Assembly: GCF_037076425.1 (NCBI RefSeq)
Contig: NZ_AP028127.1
Coordinates: 2,312,001-2,376,000, forward strand
Direction: 5' to 3'
DNA length: 64,000 nucleotides
From: Turicibacter faecis
GTDB lineage: Bacteria > Bacillota_I > Bacilli_A > MOL361 > Turicibacteraceae
The position numbers and the translations under genes were made by a program. Below the pieces are notes generated by a model, which saw only the letters and a program-made list of their open reading frames with translations, did no database searches and had not been told where the DNA came from. Positions 3,801 to 9,452 of the stretch are shown here, one piece after another. Within the stretch, counting starts at the first letter, position 1, and the number at the start of each line of letters is the position of its first letter.

Positions 3801-4565
3801 TCAAAAATTATATAACCAATACAGTGCGACGTTAATATAAGCACTAATAAAAGTCATAAGTGGAATACCAATGAAGAGTACGAGTAGTGATTTTTTCCAT
3901 CCAATCCATTTATCGGCGAGATATGATTTGTCTAAAATCCGTTTTATCAACAATATTTCGCAAAAAAATATCGCATACCATACTAATTGAAGTTGGATGA
4001 GGAAATAATCTCCGTGAACGTAATCTCCGTTATTGACGACCAACGTCGATGCTAGAAGTCCCCCAATTATCATTATAAAAATTAAAAACAACCAAGCGAT
4101 TAATTTATCGTTTTTTAAAATTTTAGTAGAACAACACCATCCAGTAATCAATAAGAAAATAACATAAATCGGGTTAGAAATAAAAGCATAACCGTTCCAA
4201 CCTAAGCTAGCACTTATCTCCTTCATAATGTATACACTGATGTAAAAGATAGATAGCTTACCACACAAAAAAGCATTAACCATCCAAAAAGCAACAGAGA
4301 GCGGCTCTCTTTTTCTTACCGATTTTAAATACCGATAAGCTAAATAAATCAAACAAAGACCATATTGAAATACATCTACAAACCAGGTTACGTATAACAG
4401 TAATACACCCAGTGCTAAAAAACTAAAATCAGTATCCTTAAAAATAAAATACGCTAACGTGGGAAACAGAATATGTACGATAAGCATAAGTGCTGGAATA
4501 GATGCTATGACTGGTAATAGATGATATTTTTCTATAAATTTTAATCGTTGATATTTACTCCTCAT
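3801..4565 (-). CDS. Multi-pass membrane protein, paralog 1 of 3 (unknown function)
   Basis: The protein has 254 residues and about six to seven hydrophobic segments. I place the start at 4565 because GGGAGGGGATGAACAT precedes that ATG and paralogs 2 and 3 start at the equivalent point. A longer reading (to 4673) would cross the predicted promoter. The N-terminus MRSKYQRLKFIEKYHLL is identical to paralog 2, and the rest is very similar to paralog 3, with a shared WCCSTKILK-like motif. No family is recognised. A promoter (4597-4625) and leader shared with paralog 2 suggest parallel regulation. Confidence 0.7.
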   Translation of the reverse strand: MRSKYQRLKFIEKYHLLPVIASIPALMLIVHILFPTLAYFIFKDTDFSFLALGVLLLYVTWFVDVFQYGLCLIYLAYRYLKSVRKREPLSVAFWMVNAFLCGKLSIFYISVYIMKEISASLGWNGYAFISNPIYVIFLLITGWCCSTKILKNDKLIAWLFLIFIMIIGGLLASTLVVNNGDYVHGDYFLIQLQLVWYAIFFCEILLIKRILDKSYLADKWIGWKKSLLVLFIGIPLMTFISAYINVALYWLYNF

Positions 4566-4596
4566 ATGTTCATCCCCTCCCTTTTTAATAATCATA

Positions 4597-4625
4597 AGTA
4601 TAGCACTAAATAAACGAAACTTGAA
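4597..4625 (-). promoter_or_regulatory. Sigma-A-like promoter of paralog 1
   Basis: On the minus strand TTCAAG (4625-4620), a 17-bp spacer and TATACT (4602-4597) lie just upstream of the ribosome site. The same arrangement is copied upstream of paralog 2. Confidence 0.55.
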
Positions 4626-4745
4626 GGACCGTCCATTAATTATCCAAGCATAATCAACAAAAATCATTCCCATCTGTTGTATTCAAACGGATGGGGATGA
4701 AACAACTTTTTACCTTGACCAAAAATTATTCAAGACAATTATAAA

Positions 4746-4798
4746 TAAAAAGCAAGATTCAGTGCACCTTTAGTGTACAGCAAATCTTGCTTTTTTTC
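4746..4798 (-). terminator. Terminator of paralog 2
   Basis: Stem AAAAGCAAGATT/AATCTTGCTTTT flanked by A and T runs, with an inner GTGCAC/GTACAC-like extension. It lies downstream of the gene ending at 4879. Confidence 0.8.
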
Positions 4799-4878
4799 GA
4801 TACGTGTTATAATTACCCACTTACAATTAAAGTATGGATTGCTAGTTTCTATTTTTAAGTTCATTATCAAGTTTTATC

Positions 4879-5499
4879 TCAAAGAGAGTTTTTATTTAAC
4901 ACTTCCTTAAATAAAAATATTTCAGCAAAAAATGAAATGTTTGCAAATAAAAACATAATTGTCTGATGCAATTCAATACCATAAAAAAATGCATTCAAAA
5001 AATGATATATAATAAAAATAAATATTAGATTAATTATACGGGTTTTATTTTTAAATCTTGTTACCGAACACCCCCACCCTATGCTCAATAAAAGAAGACC
5101 ATAAATAAACTTATTAAAAAAGCATGTATCATACTGAACAGGAAAAATATATCTATTATAATCAGCAGTTATTATAAAAATAATTAATAATATACTAATA
5201 AAAACTCTATTAATTAACCTAAAAGTAGGAGATAAGGGAAGTTTCCTCCTTAAAGTGCTAAAATACATATATATTAGATAAGGAAAAAATACAAATAAAT
5301 TTACCAAATATAAACACCCAATAGTTGGAATCACCAATATAAAAATAAGTAAAGCCGCCTCATGTGATACATCAAAATTTAACACCGAGAAATCAGGTAA
5401 TAATTGGTATAAGATAAATGTGATTGCTGGAATAGATGCTATGACTGGTAATAGATGATATTTTTCTATAAATTTTAATCGTTGATATTTACTCCTCAT
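4879..5499 (-). CDS. Multi-pass membrane protein, paralog 2 of 3 (divergent body)
   Basis: The protein has 206 residues with about six hydrophobic segments. Its first ~25 residues are identical to paralog 1, but the rest has diverged strongly and is notably AT-rich with many Ile, Phe and Lys codons. This suggests a mosaic gene: a conserved 5' end joined to a different body. The ribosome site AAAGGAGG supports the start. No known family is recognised. Its copied promoter lies at 5532-5560. Confidence 0.7.
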   Translation of the reverse strand: MRSKYQRLKFIEKYHLLPVIASIPAITFILYQLLPDFSVLNFDVSHEAALLIFILVIPTIGCLYLVNLFVFFPYLIYMYFSTLRRKLPLSPTFRLINRVFISILLIIFIITADYNRYIFPVQYDTCFFNKFIYGLLLLSIGWGCSVTRFKNKTRIINLIFIFIIYHFLNAFFYGIELHQTIMFLFANISFFAEIFLFKEVLNKNSL

Positions 5500-5531
5500 A
5501 TGTTAATCCCTTCCTCCTTTTAATAATCATA

Positions 5532-5560
5532 AGTATAGCACTGAATAAACGAAACTTGAA
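5532..5560 (-). promoter_or_regulatory. Sigma-A-like promoter of paralog 2
   Basis: TTCAAG (5560-5555), 17-bp spacer, TATACT (5537-5532), minus strand; a copy of the paralog 1 promoter. Confidence 0.55.
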
Positions 5561-5681
5561 GGACCGTCCATTAATTATCCAAGCATAATCAACAAAAATC
5601 ATTCCCATCTGTTGTATTCAAACAGATGGGGATGAAATAACTTTTTACCTTTGTCAAAAATAATTCCAGAAAATCGTAAAT

Positions 5682-5721
5682 AAAAAGCAAGATTCAGCGT
5701 ACAGCGAATCTTGCTTTTTTT
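5682..5721 (-). terminator. Terminator of paralog 3
   Basis: Stem AAAAAGCAAGATTC/GAATCTTGCTTTTT with a short loop and T run, downstream of the gene ending at 5781. It is a copy of the hairpin at 4746-4798. Confidence 0.8.
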
Positions 5722-5780
5722 CGATACGTGTTAATTACCTGCTTATGTCCTATTTATGGTCTATTAGGTTCTTTTTTCGC

Positions 5781-6521
5781 TTAATATCTTGCTAGCCCGA
5801 ATAGGATATAAAAACTAATAAAAGTCATAAGCGGAATACAAATGAAGAGTACGAGTAGTGTTTTTTTCCATCCAATCCATTTATCGGCGAGATATGGTTT
5901 GTCTAAAATCCGTTTTATCAACAATATTTCGCAAAAAAATATCGCATACCATACTAATTGAAGTTGGATGCAGAAATAATCCATATTAAATGCGACCAAC
6001 GTCGATGCTAGAAGTCCCCCGATTATCATTATAAAAATTAAAAATAACCAAGCGATTAATTTATCGCTTTTTAAAATTCTAGTAGAACAACACCATCCAG
6101 TAATCCATAAGAAAATAACATAAATCGGGTTAGAAATCAACTGATAACCTTCGTTACCTATAGTAATCCTCGTCCCCTCCATAATGTATATACCGATGTA
6201 GAGGATAGATAACTTACCACACAAAAAGGCATTAACAATCCAAAAAGCAACAGGTAAAGGTTCTCTTTTTCTGACCGACTTTAAATACCGATACGCTAAA
6301 TAAATCAAACAAAGACCATATTGACATACATCTACAAACCAGGTTGCGAATACCAACAATACCCCCAGTGCTAAAAACCTAAAAGCAATATACTTAAAAA
6401 TAAAACCCTCTACTGTAGGAAACAGAATATGTACGATAAGCATAAGTGCTGGAATAGATGCTATGACTGGTAATAGATGATGCCTCTTGATAAACCTCAA
6501 TCCCTTATTTTTACTCTCCAT
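5781..6521 (-). CDS. Multi-pass membrane protein, paralog 3 of 3
   Basis: The protein has 246 residues and about seven hydrophobic segments, with high identity to paralog 1 over most of its length (shared RYLKSVRKREPL and ITGWCCST blocks). The first residues differ (MESKNKGLRFIKRHH), but HLLPVIASIPA is retained in all three. A GGGGGAGAAAAGG ribosome site precedes the ATG. It lies 22 bp downstream of the broken YcxB-like gene, so the two probably formed an operon; the other two paralogs lack a YcxB neighbour. Function is unknown. Confidence 0.72.
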   Translation of the reverse strand: MESKNKGLRFIKRHHLLPVIASIPALMLIVHILFPTVEGFIFKYIAFRFLALGVLLVFATWFVDVCQYGLCLIYLAYRYLKSVRKREPLPVAFWIVNAFLCGKLSILYIGIYIMEGTRITIGNEGYQLISNPIYVIFLWITGWCCSTRILKSDKLIAWLFLIFIMIIGGLLASTLVAFNMDYFCIQLQLVWYAIFFCEILLIKRILDKPYLADKWIGWKKTLLVLFICIPLMTFISFYILFGLARY

Positions 6522-7132: not shown

Positions 7133-7159
7133 ACTCCTTAAAAATCTTGTCATATATTA
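7133..7159 (+). promoter_or_regulatory. Sigma-K-like promoter of the cotJ operon
   Basis: CAC at 7132-7134, a 16-bp gap after the AC, then CATATATTA at 7151-7159 fit the mother-cell sigma-K pattern (AC, 16-17 bp, CATANNNTA). The -10 would also partly suit sigma-E. Transcription would begin near 7166, leaving an ~80-nt leader before the intron. Mother-cell expression is what is known for cotJ. Confidence 0.5.
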
Positions 7160-7244
7160 AGATTAGGCAAGTTGATGATGCCTACAAGTTTAAAGAATTT
7201 GAGAACTTTGGAGGAGGTTCACACATTTTTTAAACTTTCTAAAT

Positions 7245-7250
7245 GGAGGT
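7245..7250 (+). promoter_or_regulatory. Shine-Dalgarno sequence completed by splicing
   Basis: GGAGGT ends the 5' exon and is paired inside intron P1 in the precursor. Splicing to G7655 would place it 8 nt before the GTG start of cotJA; splicing to A7650 would place it 13 nt before. In the unspliced RNA the GTG has only a weak TAGGTG upstream. A second GGAGGT at 7213-7218 could pair with the same guide sequence. Confidence 0.7.
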
Positions 7251-7654
7251 AATGCCTCCCATGTTTGGAAACAAGCATGGAGTGAGAGTCGTACTCTTCA
7301 ACATCCTTTGAATTGCTGGAATCTCCTAAAGCTCATTCAACCACAACGTAAAAGCGAATAGTTTTAAGCGTGAAGGTGACGAAAGTAGAAAAAATGAATG
7401 AGATGGCATATGGTTAAATCCTAAGTGTTCGTGCAATGGACGATCAGCAGGTAAGCCTCGAATAGAGGAAACTTCAACGACTATCCCGAGAGGGAGTAGG
7501 TCATAAGCGATGGATGACCGAAGTGGAGGATCCCCCTTTTAGATGGGGAATGATATAGTCTGCACTCATATGAAAATATGAGACGTTCTTATGAGAACTG
7601 CACGAGCGTAGCGCCCTCGTGTGAACATCATCAAAACGAAATTGTTTTGATTAG
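7251..7654 (+). ncRNA. Group I self-splicing intron in the cotJA leader
   Basis: The complete catalytic core can be folded by eye. P1 is GGAGGT (7245-7250, exon) with GCCTCC (7254-7259), leaving a U-G pair at the splice site. P2 is CATGTTTG-GAAA-CAAGCATG. P3 is ATCCTTT (7303-7309) with GGAGGAT (7525-7531). P4 lies in GAATTGCTGG (from 7310) with CAGCAG, and P5 is a CTCATTCA/TGAATGAG stem. P7 is GACTAT (7479-7484) with ATAGTC (7555-7560). P7.1 is CCC-GAGA-GGG, P7.2 is GGTCAT/ATGACC, P8 is CCCC/GGGG and P9 is CTCATAT-GAAA-ATATGAG. P7.1/P7.2 point to subgroup IA. No homing-endonuclease ORF is present. The terminal G is either 7649 or 7654. Confidence 0.92.
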
Positions 7655-7662
7655 GTGTAAAT

Positions 7663-8598
7663 GTGATTTATAATCCTTATAATACAACGGTTCAAACTCC
7701 CGGTGTTGCCCAACCTGGTATGATTGGACAACCCACACCAGCATTAGGAGCTTATCCAACAACTCCGGTTCAAGCTGGTTTCCCTATGATGCAACAATCA
7801 GTAATGCCTGTGGATACTTATCAACAGGTGATGACTCAACAACCCGTTACTGCCACTACCTATCAGCAAGTAACGACTCAACAACCTGTGGCTTCTGCCC
7901 CTTACCAACCAGTAACGACTCAACAACCTGTCGTACCAACAACTTATCCACAAGTTGTCGCTCCTGCACCTATGTGTCAGGCACCTGCGCCTGTCCCTGC
8001 TCCTGCACCCGTTTGTAAAGCACAGCCCTATGTGGCTCCAGTCCAACAACCGGTGATGCCTGTAGATGTTCAACCTAAACCAGTTGCTCCAGTGGCACAA
8101 CCTGTTCAAAAAACAGAACCACAAGTCGCTAGTACCCAAACAACAACAGCTAAACATAAAAAAACAACCTATGTTGAAGCTTACTTAGAACCTGTAGATG
8201 CAAAAGTTCCATTAATGCAACCAACCGTTTCAAAACAAGTTGTGGATAAAAAACAATATCCTGTCAGTGATGAATTAGTTTACGTTGATCAACAACCACT
8301 CAAAAGTTCAACCCAACAAGATTATAACTTATACTTAATGCAAAATGAGTACTACGCAAATAGTCAAATGGGTTACCAAGCAACTGTTGCTTCACAACCA
8401 AGAGCTGACCAAGTAGGAATGACTTGCGAAACTCTTCCGTTAGCAACAACTTATGTTAAATCTCAAACTTATCAAGGATACAACACGCCTGCACAAACGA
8501 TGCAACAAGGAACAGGATTCAATGAACTTTATTCTCCTTATACCCCTAAAAAAGTTTCGGCACCAGCGGTTTTCATTTTTAAAGGAGGTCAACACTAA
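7663..8598 (+). CDS. cotJA: CotJA-like spore coat protein with long Pro/Gln/Thr-rich repeat region
   Basis: The protein has 311 residues and a GTG start. The C-terminus carries the CotJA signature: LPLATTYV near residue 264, then QGTGFNELYSPYTPK near the end. Classical CotJA is under 100 residues. Here ~200 extra N-terminal residues consist of imperfect repeats of the QPVxxTTYQQVTTQ type and an APAPVPAPAP stretch, low-complexity sequence typical of cross-linked or surface coat proteins. Two Cys residues lie in the repeat area. It overlaps cotJB by one base. Translation should depend on splicing of the upstream intron. The role is assembly into the spore coat. Confidence 0.85.
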   Translation: MIYNPYNTTVQTPGVAQPGMIGQPTPALGAYPTTPVQAGFPMMQQSVMPVDTYQQVMTQQPVTATTYQQVTTQQPVASAPYQPVTTQQPVVPTTYPQVVAPAPMCQAPAPVPAPAPVCKAQPYVAPVQQPVMPVDVQPKPVAPVAQPVQKTEPQVASTQTTTAKHKKTTYVEAYLEPVDAKVPLMQPTVSKQVVDKKQYPVSDELVYVDQQPLKSSTQQDYNLYLMQNEYYANSQMGYQATVASQPRADQVGMTCETLPLATTYVKSQTYQGYNTPAQTMQQGTGFNELYSPYTPKKVSAPAVFIFKGGQH

Positions 8599-8846
8599 TG
8601 ACTAAAGATCAATTATTAACACAAATTTCAGCGATTAGTTTAATCGTGCACGACATTCACCTATTTCTTGATACACATCCCGGTGATGCTAAAGCATTAA
8701 AAGACCACAAAAAACTTTCAGAAGAACTTCAAAAGTTAGTCCGAGAATATGAAAAAAAATATGGGCCTCTTATGAACTTTGGTCACCAAACTGTTGACGC
8801 AGAAGGCAATTGGATTCAAGGACCTTGGCCTTGGCAAAATAAATAA
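8598..8846 (+). CDS. cotJB: Spore coat protein CotJB
   Basis: 82 residues, a normal CotJB length, with the family pattern of an N-terminal helix (LLTQISAISLIVHDIHLFLDTH), a YEKKYGPL block and a C-terminal W-x-PWPW-like end (GPWPWQNK). The start overlaps the cotJA stop (TAATG), so translation is coupled; AAAGGAGG lies 11 bp upstream. The protein is required with CotJA and CotJC for coat assembly in the mother cell. It lies 15 bp upstream of cotJC. Confidence 0.93.
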   Translation: MTKDQLLTQISAISLIVHDIHLFLDTHPGDAKALKDHKKLSEELQKLVREYEKKYGPLMNFGHQTVDAEGNWIQGPWPWQNK

Positions 8847-8861: not shown

Positions 8862-9452
8862 ATGTGGATTTATGAAAAAAGACTACAAATGCCAGTCGAT
8901 ATTAAAAAACGCGACCCAAAAATGGCACAAAATATTTTCAGTGCGCTCGGTGGAGCAGACGGAGAATTATCAGCCTCTATGGAATATCTCCAACAACGTT
9001 ACACCATGCCAACTGATCAATCAATTGCAACATTAACCGACATTGGGACAGAAGAACTTGCACATCTTGAAATGGTATCAGCTTTAATTTACCAGTTAAC
9101 AGATGGAGCTTCCATAGAAGAATTAAAAAAAGCGGGATTTGATCCAACTTACTCCGTTCACGGAACAGGAATCTTTTTAGCCGATCCAAACGGAGTCCCT
9201 TGGAAAGCTAGCTACATTTCAGTCACTTCCGATCCAGTTGCCGATTTAACTGCCAACATGGCAGCCGAACAAAAAGCACGTGCCGGATACGAACACTTAC
9301 TCGATATCGCAACTGATGAAGATGTACGATCTGTCTTACGCTATCTTCGCGAACGAGAAATCGTCCATTTCCAACGCTTTGGTGAAACATTAATGGATGT
9401 TCAAGACCACTTCAGTACCAATCGTTATTTCTTCATGAAAGACGAAGATTAA
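8862..9452 (+). CDS. cotJC: Spore coat protein CotJC (manganese-catalase family)
   Basis: 196 residues starting MWIYEKRLQMPV, as CotJC proteins do. Di-manganese ligand positions are visible: Glu35 (DGELSA), Glu65 and His68 (EELAHLEM), a second Glu in AAEQKARAGYEHLL and His in REREIVHFQRF. The family has manganese catalase activity and packs into the coat. GGGGGAAAG precedes the start. It is the last gene of the operon, followed by a strong terminator. Confidence 0.95.
   Translation: MWIYEKRLQMPVDIKKRDPKMAQNIFSALGGADGELSASMEYLQQRYTMPTDQSIATLTDIGTEELAHLEMVSALIYQLTDGASIEELKKAGFDPTYSVHGTGIFLADPNGVPWKASYISVTSDPVADLTANMAAEQKARAGYEHLLDIATDEDVRSVLRYLREREIVHFQRFGETLMDVQDHFSTNRYFFMKDED

Follow-up and report, generated by a model that had tools for sequence, protein, structure and literature searches.

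The cotJ operon of Turicibacter faecis raises the question of how a spore-coat message is translated when a group I intron lies inside its ribosome-binding site. We analysed a stretch of 64,000 nucleotides (hereafter the window, whose positions are used throughout) of this genome, which consists of one contig of 2,431,147 bases.

The coat operon and its leader

The operon downstream of the intron had been named cotJ in a preliminary description made from the sequence alone, and Pfam searches agree for cotJB and cotJC, the CotJA match being sub-threshold. The genes and leader elements are as follows.

7663..8598, + strand: cotJA, 311 aa, with a CotJA domain at residues 259-293 (20.7 bits, below the cut-off of 25)
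8598..8846, + strand: cotJB (Pfam PF12652, 2.8e-27)
8862..9452, + strand: cotJC, Mn-catalase family (Pfam PF05067, Mn_catalase, 2e-51)
7133..7159, + strand: putative sigma-K/E-like promoter, AC (7133-7134), 16 nt, CATATATTA (7151-7159)
7165..7237, + strand: conserved two-hairpin leader (folding z -3.8), with the second hairpin at 7186-7237

The T. faecis CotJA has a long Pro/Gln-rich N-terminal region and its CotJA domain is solely C-terminal, whereas relatives encode a short form of 100-116 aa (genomes G006 and G005). Additional cotJC paralogues occur in T. bilis and T. sanguinis (L025 82-705; L028), and in T. bilis one of them immediately precedes the operon with the intron.

Four Turicibacter cotJ leaders share a -10 element, CATANNNTA, in the same position, and CATAAATTA precedes the CotZ-family genes of T. 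sanguinis, T. bilis and Turicibacter sp. TJ11. We take these elements to match a sigma-K-like consensus. Together with the coat function that comes with the identity of cotJ, the -10 elements would thus fit expression late in the mother cell.

Equivalent hairpins are predicted in intron-bearing and intronless cotJ leaders, and we therefore regard the two-hairpin leader as a separate, unexplained element, possibly a ribosome standby site. Its second hairpin presents a GGAGG-containing loop of the TTGGAGGA type on a stem whose sequence varies among species (L025, L026, L027). Elsewhere in the window, on the minus strand at 3801-6521, three similar predicted membrane proteins (290, 206 and 246 aa) lie in a row, none of which has a Pfam match.

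A complete group I intron

The preliminary description had reported a complete group I core with an exact P7. The Rfam model RF00028 accepts this fold, aligning its positions 1-253 to 7255-7582 with 68.8 bits (E 2.3e-15) against a curated cut-off of 50, and this is the single RF00028 match in the whole T. faecis genome. The ORF listing contains no reading frame of at least 50 aa within the intron, and a homing endonuclease or other internal ORF was rejected on this basis. The intron, whose outer boundaries rest on two empty sites, the terminal-G rule and the precedent of group-B IStrons, and its elements are given below.

7250..7655, + strand: ORF-less group I intron, IA2-like, 406 nt, TAATG...TTAGG (RF00028 and boundaries)
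7254..7259, + strand: internal guide sequence GCCTCC, the 3' strand of P1, pairing with GGAGG
7260..7279, + strand: P2 hairpin, treated as P1 by the Rfam model; this stretch is missing from the empty allele
7303..7310, + strand: P3 5' strand (partner 7524-7531)
7314..7319, + strand: P4 5' strand (partner 7444-7449)
7479..7484, + strand: P7 5' strand GACTAT (exact partner ATAGTC at 7555-7560), invariant in four copies
7485..7519, + strand: P7.1 and P7.2, a hairpin pair typical of subgroup IA (compensatory changes in 6 of 9 pairs)
7565..7622, + strand: P9, P9.1 and P9.2 (compensatory changes in 9 of 18 pairs)

A hand-written model of P1 to P9.2 (85 pairs in 16 helices) was tested on four intron copies, the one in T. 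faecis and three from relatives. Across the modelled pairs 99.1% of cells are paired, and 24 of the 85 pairs show changes on both sides, compared with a mean of 7.7 in shuffles, none of 500 of which reached 24; with just four sequences, all related, the shuffle control does not take out this relatedness. When the pair model is slid along the alignment, a control in which relatedness is kept, the double changes fall to 0-2. The P1 pairs themselves (GGAGG with CCTCC) are invariant in all four copies, so P1 draws its support from IStron relatives in which the guide matches a different exon: reading by eye, we found ACGG/T with GCCGC (L008) and AGGGG/T with GCCCT (L009), a slash marking the splice site. 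The P1 loop of the cotJ copies is unusually tight, at 3-4 nt. The P7.1 and P7.2 hairpins with their compensatory changes, together with the assignment of the Turicibacter intron to IA2 in PMC4227781, place the intron in subgroup IA2.

Predicted splice boundaries from empty alleles

The exon sequences that meet at the predicted junction are the following.

7245..7249, + strand: 5' exon end GGAGG, the upstream part of the Shine-Dalgarno sequence, paired in P1 (from empty alleles)
7656..7665, + strand: 3' exon start TGTAAAT and the GTG start codon of cotJA at 7663-7665 (predicted ligation)

Empty alleles read GGAGGTGCAAAC (L027, T. sanguinis cotJ) and CTAGGAGGTGAGGATATG (L166, L167). The empty cotJ leader of T. 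sanguinis is ATGGAGGTGCAAACCGTTG, which gives ATGGAGGTGCAAACCG-TTG up to the start codon, and the intronless cotJA of G005 is GGAGGTCAAAACGTG, which gives TTGGAGGTCAAAAC-GTG. The empty CotZ-family gene of TJ11 (G004) has GTACCTAGGAGGTGAGGATATG and reads GTACCTAGGAGGTGAGGAT-ATG, nearly the same as that of T. bilis (G001; GTATCTAGGAGGTGAGGAT-ATG). Occupied alleles read GGAGG/T...GG/TGCAAAC-GTG and CTAGGAGG/T...GG/TGAGCTT-ATG, and the intron-bearing CotZ-family gene of T. sanguinis has GTACCTAGGAGG/T...AAGG/TGAGCTTATG.

With GGT on either side, cuts at any of four positions yield the empty sequence, and two of the four leave an intron that ends in G. A terminal G is present at G7655, and GG stands before TG at the 3' boundary in all four copies. 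One of the G-ending options begins with T after GG, matching the group-B IStron BcISt1, in which, by RT-PCR, splicing follows a G and the intron opens with U (PMC4227781). Based on the empty sites, the terminal G and this precedent, we infer an intron from T7250 to G7655, with a 5' splice site that probably follows G7249 rather than a U, departing from the usual U rule. Thus, GGAGG most likely closes the 5' exon and T7250 is the first intron base, not the last exon base as in the preliminary description, which had ended the exon in GGAGGT and started the 3' exon 9-14 nt before GTG; T7656 lies 7 nt before it. The intron had also been said to part the Shine-Dalgarno sequence from the start codon. 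The two are indeed separated, but the intron splits the Shine-Dalgarno sequence itself (GGAGG/TG).

The predicted T. faecis ligation is GGAGG/TGTAAATGTG. Every predicted spliced form places GGAGG 7 nt from the start codon, as do the intronless G005 allele and the CotZ forms; T. sanguinis cotJ is the exception, having a TTG start at a distance of 9 nt. The usual U-ending 5' site (GGAGGT/CAAAC; junction TGGAGGT/TAAATGTG) was rejected as less parsimonious, since its products would be one base shorter than the empty alleles and a one-base loss would be needed at both loci.

The preliminary description had GGAGG as the P1 strand, and the empty sites and relatives favour this choice over the Rfam alignment. 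That alignment, although top-scoring and marked by an invariant U-G pair in the helix concerned, makes P1 from the CATGT-GCATG helix, which would extend the 5' exon to T7264 and keep GGAGGTAATGCCTCCCATGT in the mRNA; we consider this extremely improbable. The empty cotJ allele lacks AATGCCTCCCATGT, the empty cotZ alleles lack its counterpart, and IStron relatives have the helix within the intron, past the GG target. The empty sites thus contradict a model in which P1 is put onto P2.

In T. faecis only, a hairpin loop at 7213-7218 (GGAGGAGG/T) lies 32 nt upstream and could serve as an additional 5' splice site. A Shine-Dalgarno sequence (GGAGGAGGTG) would likewise result from ligation at this loop.

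Recurrence in coat genes of Turicibacter

DNA and Rfam searches of the family identified an intron at the same position before cotJA in T. bilis and TJ11, and a cotJ leader without intron in T. sanguinis. In the latter species an intron with 74-76% identity precedes a gene of 173 aa that belongs to the Spore-coat_CotZ family (Pfam, 57.3 bits), and this copy, too, splits the ribosome site of its gene. Sister copies score 82.7-89 bits (RF00028). We consider the identity of 7250-7655 as a complete group I intron, its position inside a Shine-Dalgarno sequence and its recurrence at two coat loci to be solid.

The three cotJ introns are 87.6-89.1% identical, whereas fourfold sites of the adjacent cotJC genes are 41-47% identical. 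The ribozyme must therefore be strongly constrained or have been re-acquired. A tree of CotJC left gain versus loss of the intron undecided, and the G003 assembly has no cotJA match. T. faecis has been placed outside the cluster of other Turicibacter strains (PMC11165905), and since it carries the intron, a history in which T. sanguinis lost the element is simpler than one with several gains; that T. bilis and TJ11 carry it along with T. faecis likewise points to an old acquisition followed by this loss. T. sanguinis MOL361 is described as non-sporulating, and T. bilis and T. faecis form spores, a parallel between spore formation and carriage of the cotJ intron that, with four species, is no more than suggestive. 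As T. sanguinis lives without it, the cotJ intron is dispensable.

A probable ribosome site made by splicing

Pairing with the genome's own 16S tail changes from -6.3 kcal/mol in the unspliced T. faecis RNA to -13.2 in the predicted spliced form; the 16S-type tail GGAUCACCUCCUUUCU occurs 12 times in this genome. The corresponding values (kcal/mol) are -5.2 or -5.4 and -13.0 for T. bilis and TJ11, and -8.7 and -16.3 for the cotZ copy. In a simple fold of the unspliced RNA, the P1-bound GGAGG is about 10% unpaired, and it lies about 410 nt from GTG. On these duplex energies, splicing should strengthen initiation strongly.

We propose that a group IA2 intron, related to the ribozyme of group-B IStrons and without transposase genes, sits inside the Shine-Dalgarno sequence of cotJABC. 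In the precursor RNA its guide GCCUCC, close to the ribosomal anti-Shine-Dalgarno sequence, would pair with GGAGG to form P1, burying the main ribosome-binding sequence some 410 nt from the start codon. Splicing initiated by GTP, after G7249 and G7655, would join GGAGG to UGUAAAU-GUG and thereby restore the seven-base Shine-Dalgarno sequence GGAGGUG, leaving 7 nt between GGAGG and the cotJA start and leading to more translation. That splicing would both make and position the ribosome site had been suggested in the preliminary description, and this is strongly supported by the two independent empty-site comparisons, the almost constant 7-nt spacing and the duplex energies. We regard a coat-gene ribosome site made by splicing as the best explanation of the locus and as quite probably correct; splicing in vivo, the dependence of translation on it and the mother-cell setting are presumed.

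The stronger statement, that coat-protein translation would require splicing, goes too far. The unspliced T. faecis RNA retains AGGTG 5 nt before GTG, the site of the -6.3 kcal/mol pairing, and the two sister copies retain GGTG, so some translation may occur even from unspliced RNA, and the residual AGGTG may allow weak, leaky initiation. In a simple fold of the predicted spliced leader GGAGGTG is about 26% unpaired; being largely paired, it may not be fully exposed by splicing.

Comparison with known elements

Tourasse et al. 2014 devote a few lines to a Turicibacter intron, which has GGAGG as its homing site and is akin to group-B IStrons (PMC4227781). The ORF-less IA2 intron recorded there for T. 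sanguinis PC909 and Turicibacter sp. HGF1 shares the genus, the GGAGG site and the lack of a transposase with the intron studied here; it very probably belongs to the same element family and is likely the cotZ copy. The words "spore", "start codon" and "ribosome binding" do not occur in the main text of that paper, and what we add to its account is the link of GGAGG to coat-gene Shine-Dalgarno sequences, as well as the cotJ copies.

Group-B IStrons (BcISt1, CbISt1/4) resemble the Turicibacter intron in having a target that ends in GG and U as first intron base (PMC4227781). They differ in carrying ORFs for IS607/IS605-type transposases in their 3' part, whereas the coat-gene intron has neither tnpA nor tnpB, and their long P1 loop corresponds to just 3-4 nt in the cotJ copies. 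An IStron in Acetoanaerobium noterae (L240), with TnpB downstream, has a ribozyme that matches 86% of the query at 73% identity, and it has the identical guide GCCTCC. In contrast to the coat-gene copies, it lies not in a ribosome site but in a coding sequence, after GAAGAGG in a flavin-reductase-like gene. Another relative with TnpB downstream is found in G003 contig 19 (L008). Both are group-B-type IStrons inside coding sequences after GG and share their ribozyme with the coat-gene introns. An isolated related group I intron (L009, 54.9 bits; T. sanguinis, 789 kb) is intergenic, upstream of a galU-like gene, with the target AGGGG/T and no transposase seen; it is perhaps an IStron remnant.

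Ribosome sites made by splicing are already known from C. difficile, where splicing of the 5' leader by a c-di-GMP-II riboswitch and allosteric ribozyme positions the ribosome site (Lee et al. 2010, per PMC3984707; PMC8987985), and the ligation predicted here, which would restore GGAGGTG 7 nt from the start codon, would be comparable. Unlike in that system, we found neither an aptamer nor an alternative splice-site switch: upstream of the intron there is no c-di-GMP-II aptamer, no riboswitch was detected at the gathering score, and matches at a relaxed E-value were at chance level, so an upstream aptamer was rejected. It further differs in that the split falls within a Shine-Dalgarno sequence that is paired in P1, and in the host being a spore-coat operon.

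Elements of the sigK skin type interrupt a mother-cell sporulation gene and have to be removed for its expression. Skin, known in C. difficile (PMC5025042), is excised from DNA by a recombinase, whereas the coat-gene intron would be removed from RNA by its ribozyme and stays in the genome.

The preliminary description knew of no comparable case in a cotJ operon, and our literature search found no paper on a coat gene whose Shine-Dalgarno sequence holds a group I intron, most subscription journals and supplements lying outside the search. The intron and its GGAGG homing site had, however, been mentioned in 2014 (PMC4227781, main text). What is new is the placement in Shine-Dalgarno sequences of coat genes, the recurrence and the conservation, the intron family itself being known. 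The locus is a natural example, from a genus common in the gut, of a Shine-Dalgarno sequence that is itself the exon junction, so that translation and ribozyme activity should be coupled without a sensor domain.

What the intron may be for

Two readings concern purpose, and both are compatible with a ribosome site made by splicing. There is about an even chance that the intron is a neutral passenger, splicing fast and constitutively, whose location reflects only the specificity of its guide for GGAGG. This motif is common at ribosome sites: in the window, 26 of 95 GGAGG sites (about 27%, from a crude ORF set) lie at Shine-Dalgarno distance from a start codon. As the guide matches the Shine-Dalgarno sequence, landing there needs no special explanation; long persistence might. 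A passenger also fits the finding of no aptamer or other regulatory RNA and the presence of the leader hairpins in the intronless allele. It sits less easily with an intron kept at the same coat operon in three species while changing far more slowly than synonymous sites, and with recurrence at a second coat gene, yet the identity could reflect ribozyme constraint alone. By default we view the intron as well tolerated and no longer mobile, an element on which its host gene has been made to depend; a role in regulation is possible, though unsupported.

Such a role would be that of a domesticated developmental delay or checkpoint, with the splicing rate, GTP or Mg2+ in the mother cell setting the time or amount of coat-protein synthesis. 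Sigma-K-like -10 elements stand at both coat genes whose Shine-Dalgarno sequence holds a copy, the cotJ copies without the long P1 loop of their IStron relatives look immobile yet are kept, and shared carriage by T. faecis, T. bilis and TJ11 points to an acquisition long ago. The lack of a ligand-binding domain, the mere two independent insertion sites and the intronless cotJ of T. sanguinis make such a checkpoint rather unlikely. We similarly rate as doubtful the broader idea that a lineage whose guide mimics the anti-Shine-Dalgarno sequence settles in ribosome sites and is kept in coat genes as an RNA counterpart of skin; if true, coat translation in the mother cell waits for a ribozyme.

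A dead intron, with cotJA translated from AGGTG-GTG of the unspliced RNA, would account for the AGGTG or GGTG beside the start codon in all copies, but is very improbable given the intact core with its invariant P7, the 24 compensatory pair changes and splice-site bases unchanged in three species.

The intron has settled independently at two coat genes, and sister species with empty alleles provide ready-made controls. Two ideas become testable: that self-splicing introns can become required parts of a developmental programme, and that guides complementary to the Shine-Dalgarno sequence are a niche for bacterial introns.

Group I introns in other Bacilli

RF00028 matches occur in 16 of 395 Bacilli genomes, and among the loci inspected (three weak matches, L189-L191, were left out) none outside Turicibacter is a group I intron in a ribosome site. 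These other loci are phage-like coding regions, nrdD, positions beside tRNA genes, and IStrons. In a search for the same intron class in viruses, none of 39 IMG/VR pattern matches has a group I core by a simple motif check. Several group I introns lie in nrdD-like genes for anaerobic ribonucleotide reductase (L010-L013, L035, L036; T. sanguinis 0.415 Mb, TJ11 1.63 Mb); they adjoin GIY-YIG-like endonuclease ORFs, named by eye, and are unrelated to the cotJ question.
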